Below, in pieces: positions 47,875 to 48,751 of a stretch of DNA of 64,000 nucleotides. Made by a program: the position numbers and the translations under genes. Below the pieces are notes generated by a model. The model did not search any database. It had not been told where the DNA came from and was given only the letters and a program-made list of their open reading frames with translations. Every line of letters begins with the position of its first letter. Position 1 is the first letter of the stretch. Source of the stretch: Pirellula sp. (GTDB taxonomy: Bacteria; Planctomycetota; Planctomycetia; Pirellulales; PNKZ01); the NCBI GenBank assembly GCA_013822735.1, contig PNKZ01000001.1, positions 1 through 64,000 of the forward strand, in the 5' to 3' direction.

Positions 47875-47938
47875 GCCGACTGCAGGTTCGGATTACATCC
47901 ATACCTGATGAACCAGTCTGAACTTTTTCTTCGTCGGC
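47875..47938 (+). ncRNA. Candidate Y RNA unit E (compact, no tRNA-like module)
   Basis: GCCGAC/GTCGGC; internal loop TGCAG / ..CTTC; middle helix GTTCGGA/TCTGAAC; inner hairpin CATC..GATG. Confidence 0.5.
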
Positions 47939-47944
47939 ACGTCT

Positions 47945-48110
47945 TTGTTCGCAGCAGTTCCAACTGCTCGTCGTGAGTCCATGACGGTCCTAAGGTAGCG
48001 ACGCCGGGCGACCGGCTAGTGAAGGGCGGAATCATCTCTCGCAGATGCGCACCGCCGGTCTACGGTCGAGAATGCTCGTGAGGCTCGATACGGACGGCCG
48101 TAAAAAACTG
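47945..48110 (+). ncRNA. Unassigned structured segment with an 18-nt 23S rRNA identity
   Basis: ACGGTCCTAAGGTAGCGA at 47984-48001; helices GACCGGC/GCCGGTC (48009/48054), CATCT/AGATG, TACGGTCG/CGGCCGTA. Confidence 0.35.
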
Positions 48111-48168
48111 CTCGCGGCACCTCCTCGTTGGAATGCTCTTATCAAACGAAGTATTGAAACATCGAAAC

Positions 48169-48313
48169 ACGGATCGACTGCCTGTCGGAGTACATGGTCT
48201 CTGGAACCCGAGGTTGTGAGTTCGATTCTCACCGGTGCTACTTAGTTAAGTTCGCGGCACCGTAGCTCAAAGGATAGAGCGCGTAAATCTCTGACGAATC
48301 TTCGTCGATCCGT
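48169..48313 (+). ncRNA. Candidate YrlA-type Y RNA unit A with permuted tRNA-like module
   Basis: ACGGATCGAC/GTCGATCCGT outer helix; GTCGGAG/CTCTGAC middle helix; T-arm GTGAG-TTCGATT-CTCAC; closed acceptor CGGTGCT-loop-GGCACCG; TA; D-arm GCTC-AAAGGATA-GAGC. Confidence 0.65.
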
Positions 48314-48344
48314 CTTGTTTGCATTTGAGGAAAGGAAGAAACAC

Positions 48345-48488
48345 GCTTCGCCGACTGTCCGATCGGAATCCATCGTTAGAGCGGGCGCCGTGAGAAGCGC
48401 CAGGTCGCAGGTTCGATCCCTGCCTGCGTCGGCATCGCCGTCGTAAGTAGCTCAGTAAAACATCTGATCAACGCTTCGTCGGAGAAGC
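48345..48488 (+). ncRNA. Candidate YrlA-type Y RNA unit D
   Basis: GCTTCgCCGAC/GTCGGaGAAGC; GATCGGA/TCTGATC; T-arm GCAGG-TTCGATC-CCTGC; closed stem around CGGC-ATC-GCCG; D-arm eroded. Confidence 0.6.
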
Positions 48489-48506
48489 ATTAAGAAGCAT
48501 CGTTGG

Positions 48507-48623
48507 AAACACGGTTCGACTGCCGGACGGGAGTACATGGATTACCGAGTTCGATTCTCGACCGCCCGACTTGCTTGTCTACCTCGGGCGGGGCTCTCGC
48601 CATCACTTCGTCGAACCGAGTTT
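48507..48623 (+). ncRNA. Candidate YrlA-type Y RNA unit B, D-arm lost
   Basis: AAACaCGGTTCGAC/GTCGAACCGaGTTT; GGaCGGGAG/CTCTCGCC; T-arm CGAG-TTCGATT-CTCG; closed acceptor CCGCCCG-loop-CGGGCGG. Confidence 0.6.
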
Positions 48624-48671
48624 TGTCTTAGTCAGAGTTAGCAAAAGGACGTGCCGATCACATCGCACAAA

Positions 48672-48751
48672 CCCGACTGCCTGGCCGGAGTACATCAACT
48701 GTTAATTGATTCGAGAGCCGCAAGGCTCGACTCTGGTCGTTCTTCGTCGGG
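48672..48751 (+). ncRNA. Candidate Y RNA unit C in the 5' leader of the Ro60 gene
   Basis: CCCGAC/GTCGGG; internal loop TGCCT / GTTCTTC; GGCCGGAGT/ACTCTGGTC; inner hairpins ATCAA-CTGTTAA-TTGAT and GAGCC-GCAA-GGCTC. Confidence 0.55.

Follow-up and report, generated by a model that had tools for sequence, protein, structure and literature searches.

Mimicry of tRNA by bacterial Y RNAs, as in YrlA, is already known. TruB and DusA both act on YrlA (PMC8394870). In Deinococcus a Y RNA tethers Rsr to PNPase (PMC8394870), and Rsr acts there in rRNA maturation (23S) and decay (PMC4726728). The searchable open literature, for YrlA as covered by reviews, yielded no Y RNA that mimics rRNA or displays an anticodon loop, and no array of such RNAs.

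How does the planctomycete locus described here compare with these systems? In the stretch of DNA analysed (the window, 64,000 nucleotides) six tandem Y RNA units follow one another on the + strand, after the end of a tRNA array and before rsr, the Ro60 gene. With YrlA of Salmonella and Mycobacterium the unit at 48169 has in common a Ro60-type basal stem, a permuted domain of T-arm, loop-closed acceptor and D-arm, and a gene beside rsr. The differences are that the array has the motif CGACUGC/CUUCGUCG where YrlA has CGAAUGC/ACUUGUCG, and in that four further module types, including mimics of rRNA and of an anticodon loop, stand in one array. In RYPER, the Rsr–Y RNA–PNPase assembly of D. radiodurans, the Y RNA is a tether of Ro60 to its effector, as we propose here; there the module binds PNPase, whereas here there are several module types. 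We consider it probable that the locus supplies Ro60-type RNAs which, on one Rsr/Ro60 stem, imitate different translation RNAs in order to tether enzymes.

The rsr gene (48777–50405, + strand), directly 3′ of the Y RNA units, encodes a Ro60 orthologue of 542 amino acids. PF05731 and PF25045 both exceed their cut-offs in its product, giving the TROVE and Ro60 vWA domains that identify it as Ro60/Rsr, and the best match in the PDB, hence the closest solved structure, is D. radiodurans Rsr (2NVO). On the other side of the units ARAGORN finds 19 tRNAs (44746–47866, + strand), with an HNH endonuclease gene in their midst (46722–47321, + strand). Since the whole genome gives 78 tRNA matches, many of them dispersed, the tRNAs of the array are supernumerary. 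The Y RNA array adjoins the end of this tRNA array without a break, and related loci show a similar order. The tRNA array units of Mycobacterium are likewise dense in supernumerary tRNA genes and enclose an HNH gene (PMC12803027), and the trn operon of Anabaena is a comparable tRNA array that is stress-induced (PMC10272220); the array described here differs from both in running on into Y RNAs and rsr. The same genome has a second dense tRNA array (L158, G000:C3:8000-16000, with about 14 tRNAs at C3:11702-13055), from which the Y-RNA 5′ motif is absent.

Could the units be chance resemblances? Our unit finder scores the outer and middle helices of the shared Y stem. It gave 189 matches in the 92 kb that precede 66 related rsr genes, one on the opposite strand of the same 92 kb and none in block-shuffled sequence; the rest of the window (63 kb) contained no match on the + strand and one on the − strand. 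Because matches are near zero in the strand, shuffled and window controls, chance is excluded. A tight pattern of the 5′ motif occurs seven times in the 6.88-Mb genome, five of these within the array, and the reversed control pattern does not occur. A preliminary description of this DNA had reported about five tandem units. All five are present on the + strand, no more than 6 nt from the positions given: the starts at 47875, 48169 and 48672 stand, while those at 48345 and 48507 move to 48351 and 48512. A sixth unit (47957–48134) had been overlooked. The shared strings and covarying helices are as described there, and two of the checks that it named gave these results: the 57 planctomycete rsr loci whose upstream sequence extends to 900 nt or more hold 0–7 units each (mean 3.2), and the stems covary in dozens of homologous loci.

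All units share a Y-RNA-like basal stem, CRACUG...GGAGUACAU / CUUCGUYG. On the 5′ side the outer helix has C[A/G]AC-UG at its end, and the middle helix that comes next ends with GGA.U(A/C)CAU, for which the second unit (47957–48134) reads GUGAGUCCAU instead; on the 3′ side come the partner of the middle helix, a CUUC-type bulge and the partner of the outer helix. The basal stem with its internal-loop motif is common to the six units of the window and to the 189 units upstream of related rsr genes, and compensatory changes occur in both of its helices. As with known Y RNAs, the genes adjoin that of Ro60/Rsr. Comparison with Rfam models, also named as a check in the preliminary description, gave matches under the gathering scores. 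Unit 48169 aligns with the whole of the YrlA model (RF02553) at an E value of 7.4e-11, with 1.5 kb searched, but its 53.4 bits, against 69, fall short of strict Rfam membership; unit 47875 matches YrlB (RF02565) at 28.3 bits (E 0.0035), the gathering score being 97. Many more units of the related loci match YrlA, also below threshold, and the new modules found no match in the Rfam search. On their sequences the array units are related to the known Y RNAs of bacteria, though they diverge from the seeds used by Rfam, and are predicted to bind Ro60. That a Y RNA family stands beside a Ro60 gene, as first supposed, is supported by the sub-threshold YrlA and YrlB matches, the TROVE and vWA domains of the neighbour with its likeness to 2NVO, and synteny and covarying stems in dozens of loci.

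What do the stems carry? In the anatomy shown by the predicted structures, the copied part of an RNA is cut at a loop, where it is joined to the Y stem, and a hairpin closes off what is naturally its root helix. The idea of a size-graded family of permuted tRNA mimics proves too narrow, as 23S, anticodon stem-loop, minihelix and module-less units are present as well. The last kind is represented by the first unit (47875–47938, + strand), a short hairpin of 64 nt that offers a stem for putative Ro60 binding and no clear effector module. It shares with YrlB its short hairpin form and its 5′ motif, and is a candidate YrlB only, at 28 bits against 97.

The putative effector module of the second unit (47957–48134, + strand) is a mimic of 23S rRNA H69–H71. 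Over 21 nt (47981–48001, + strand) the sequence ATGACGGTCCTAAGGTAGCGA is identical to the organism's own 23S rRNA, covering the 3′ strand of H69 and the H70 region that follows. Next to it a GNRA-capped hairpin, GCCGG-GCGA-CCGGC (48003–48016, + strand), takes the place of 23S H71 (GUCGGG...UCCGAC). Exact matches to 23S of 21–28 nt occur in 11 loci, whereas reversed 23S, our null, gives at most 11 nt; the identity to the H69–H71 strand in the window, 21 nt against this null maximum, is therefore beyond chance. Among the other units no match rose clearly above the reversed-23S background. The hairpin GCCGCAAGGC of the anticodon class does occur in H68; a tetraloop hairpin of this kind is too common for us to claim it as a copy.

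Does this module have a structure of its own? For 17 homologues RNAalifold gives 44 pairs, 25 of them with two-sided, compensatory changes. In this structure 95.9% of cells are paired, none of 500 shuffles is as good, and sliding the alignment by one column lowers the paired cells to 38–46%. The H69-equivalent stem, which covaries (ACGGUC/GGCCGU becomes AGGAGC/GCUCCU in L056), is closed by the two ends of the unit, so that the Y stem occupies the place of the ribosomal H69 loop. The single 23S-type region does not stand out in minimum free energy (z −0.65), so that the case for the mimic rests on covariation and not on folding energy. The 3′ strand, GATACGGACGGCCGTAA, was placed as the 5′ strands of H67, H68 and H69 in permuted order, with helices that are conserved and partly covarying. 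Its similarity to 23S is weak, individual sequences being mostly not significant, with the consensus at p 0.01–0.02 and the profile test at 54/1000. By sequence only the 5′ strand of the mimic is secure; from helix order and covariation we infer the permuted arrangement in which H67 and H68 follow the H69-equivalent stem.

Set beside helices 67–71 of 23S domain IV, the module shows the identical 21–28 nt, a hairpin at the H71 position and helices corresponding to H69, H67 and H68, permuted. It differs in being a small stand-alone RNA on a Y stem, without 23S positions 1937–1943 and without the UUCCU of H70; in most loci it also lacks the H69 loop, which the Y stem replaces. RlmD and RluD could not act on the mimic, because 1937–1943 and mostly the H69 loop, bases that such enzymes need, are missing. 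In a subgroup (L044, L060, L070 and L129, the last of these outside the order) the H69 hairpin is preserved whole, as CGTAACTATGACGG or in a nearly identical form.

We rejected other readings of this unit. Contamination by 23S rRNA, or a remnant of it, is ruled out by the non-23S flanks, the covarying structure and the co-occurrence only with rsr; on the same grounds it is not the target of a homing endonuclease, the H69 region being a site of the I-CeuI type. A phage origin fails because the exact pattern is absent from viral contigs. A broader form of such explanations would see the array as debris: decayed tRNA and 23S fragments in a degenerate tRNA cluster, or a fragment of a 23S homing site related to the HNH gene, which does lie within the tRNA array. 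A published account of planctomycete tRNA clusters does call them degenerate and some of their tRNAs partly degraded (PMC4807772). This reading is contradicted by the compensatory changes throughout, by the constancy of Y stems and strand beside flanks that are not 23S, and by the confinement of the 23S-type model to genomes with rsr (below), and we hold it to be very improbable. The array units are easily taken for degenerate tRNA genes, and some of the ‘degraded’ tRNAs of the published clusters (PMC4807772) may be Y RNAs of the array type.

How closely does the 23S-type module follow rsr? R1, a covariance model of the module, matches 16 of 301 genomes of the order, a count inflated by kinship among the genomes; all 16 are among the 55 that have rsr, and the sampled rsr-less genomes of the order gave no match. 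Fourteen of these matches lie on the same strand as rsr and at most 2.2 kb upstream of it. The remaining two are one in a fragmented assembly (G212) and one on another contig than rsr (G075); in the latter, an assembly of 20 contigs, the mimic unit is on C13 and rsr on C9, which means that array and rsr can come apart. Outside the order, an R1 match and rsr occur together in three genomes, and R1 found nothing in the more distant rsr loci examined. On the true 23S locus its sole match, at 16 bits, is exactly H69–H71.

The next three units are tRNA-like. The third (48169–48313, + strand) runs T-arm, acceptor 3′ strand, loop, acceptor 5′ strand, UA, D-arm, which is the permuted T-arm, closed-acceptor and D-arm domain; it is the known YrlA design, a permuted tRNA opened in the anticodon stem. 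In 12 homologues of this type, two-sided changes affect 16 of the 31 predicted pairs, among them all acceptor pairs but one. The module described for ‘unit A’ is the one here and not at 47875. In the fourth unit (48351–48482, + strand) the permuted tRNA is opened in the D-loop, its anticodon arm capped and its acceptor closed. The 3′ half of the D-arm, UUAGAGC (TTAGAGC), forms the 5′ side and the 5′ half, UAGCUCAGU (TAGCTCAGT), the 3′ side; between them lie a capped anticodon-stem hairpin, the variable loop, the T-arm and the closed acceptor. Six relatives have the same order of elements, the eighth sequence of the alignment being of another type. T-stem and acceptor pairs vary in this class; the closing D-stem is unproven by covariation because GAGC/GCUC is invariant. 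The fifth unit (48512–48618, + strand) is a loop-closed minihelix of T-arm and acceptor without a D-arm, a type that recurs in L004, L008, L030, L037, L044, L062 and L074, with the proviso that, 23S and YrlA apart, module classes were assigned in part by visual inspection. Three permuted tRNA-like modules had been claimed: 48169 and 48351 do have T-, acceptor and D-elements, and 48512 has the T-arm and closed acceptor only. In L041, at about 4019–4149, a Y stem bears a permuted tRNA with all four arms, its anticodon loop being CTGCTAA (Ser GCU).

The sixth unit (48672–48751, + strand) combines a mimic of an anticodon stem-loop with a GNRA hairpin; the earlier statement that an anticodon arm is lacking does not extend to it. 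Its stem-loop, ATCAA-CTGTTAA-TTGAT (48694–48710, + strand), has a 7-nt loop identical to that of the organism's own tRNA-Asn(GUU), encoded in the tRNA array at 45642. In the class to which the unit belongs the stems covary and the loop is mostly CU-NNN-AA (CT-NNN-AA) with a variable triplet, the anticodons including GUU, GUG, GCG, CUU, GGU, GAU and GCU. In a class list assembled partly by eye, 16 of 22 loops (8 of 14 distinct) are real tRNA anticodon loops of these loci, against a background of 35 in 2865 (1.2%) for hairpins of 5 bp and 7 nt. The marks of an anticodon mimic, namely a 5-bp stem, a 7-nt loop with U33 and a variable anticodon matching real tRNAs, are thus all present.

Might these nevertheless be Y RNAs of the ordinary YrlA type, all with the same partner (e.g. 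PNPase), their distal modules being variation tolerated after transfer from neighbouring tRNA genes and having no function of their own? YrlA itself mimics tRNA, the tRNA array directly before the units could donate modules, and unit copy number differs between loci. Against this, many families show these distinct classes again, their stems covarying and their loops fixed, and no tRNA gene can be the source of the 23S module, whose CCUAAGGUAGCGA stays almost unchanged in 17 diverged homologues. We regard a single partner as improbable.

Some further observations concern other loci. Cultivable relatives that have the array include Stieleria sedimenti (L056), Rhodopirellula rubra (L081) and Rubripirellula obstinata (L071). 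Another class of Y RNA has a three-way junction (GCCA-GGGAAGC-GGGA-GCUUCCC-AGUACC..GGUAC-GGC), measures 100–135 nt and is often the unit nearest rsr; it was seen in L017, L023, L024, L032, L034, L074, L078 and others. An IMG/VR contig classed as viral (L134) has rsr, its Rsr 64% identical, and at least two Y units, of which one (about 4780–4970) contains a permuted tRNA with the anticodon loop CTTGTAA. Upstream of rsr in a second planctomycete Rsr clade (L009, L010, L011 and L015; 42–47% identity) we recognised no Y RNA array.

What role might be played by so varied a set? In the reading that we prefer, the basal stem common to all units would be the handle for Rsr/Ro60. The distal ends would present a tRNA elbow with acceptor, a D-loop-opened tRNA, a T-arm/acceptor minihelix, an anticodon stem-loop and 23S H69–H71, the short unit at 47875 presenting no module. 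Each module would be bound by an enzyme whose usual substrate is the part copied, one that serves in modification, maturation or decay of tRNA or rRNA, and the array could in this way tether one Ro60 ring to several exchangeable partners. This proposal extends the known cases of Rsr–Y RNA–PNPase and of YrlA with TruB and DusA. The array may act jointly with the adjacent array of spare tRNAs under translational stress or RNA damage.

The main rival to tethering is that the modules are decoys, which mimic the targets of tRNA- or rRNA-cutting toxins or defence nucleases and soak these up while the tRNA array supplies spares. Between them the modules cover several sites at which toxins tend to strike (anticodon loops, tRNA elbow, 23S H69–H71), the anticodon loops are intact and diversified, and the spare tRNA array with its HNH gene adjoins, a sister array type having been described as putative antidefence (PMC12803027). 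Hughes et al. suggest that YrlA could competitively inhibit an anticodon nuclease, but Salmonella YrlA is not cleaved by one (PMC7790460). The anticodon loop is missing from several of the tRNA units and UUCCU of H70 from the 23S module, and a decoy would have no need of a Ro60 stem. We judge decoys unlikely. The notion of a defence system was set aside, PADLOC giving no match for Rsr.

More tentatively, we suggest that planctomycete Ro60 may command a library of Y RNAs, including the first rRNA mimic and bona fide anticodon loops, that would tether module-specific tRNA and rRNA enzymes; for H69–H71 the partner would perhaps be an assembly or modification factor of the large subunit. Imitation of rRNA appears to be new for the bacterial Y RNA family. 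Here one locus has side by side tRNA joined to the stem in different places and a fragment of 23S, and with one Ro60 handle and six different ends the recruitment by effector domains becomes directly comparable by pull-down. The 23S-like Y RNA would connect Ro60 with one particular functional site on the large ribosomal subunit.
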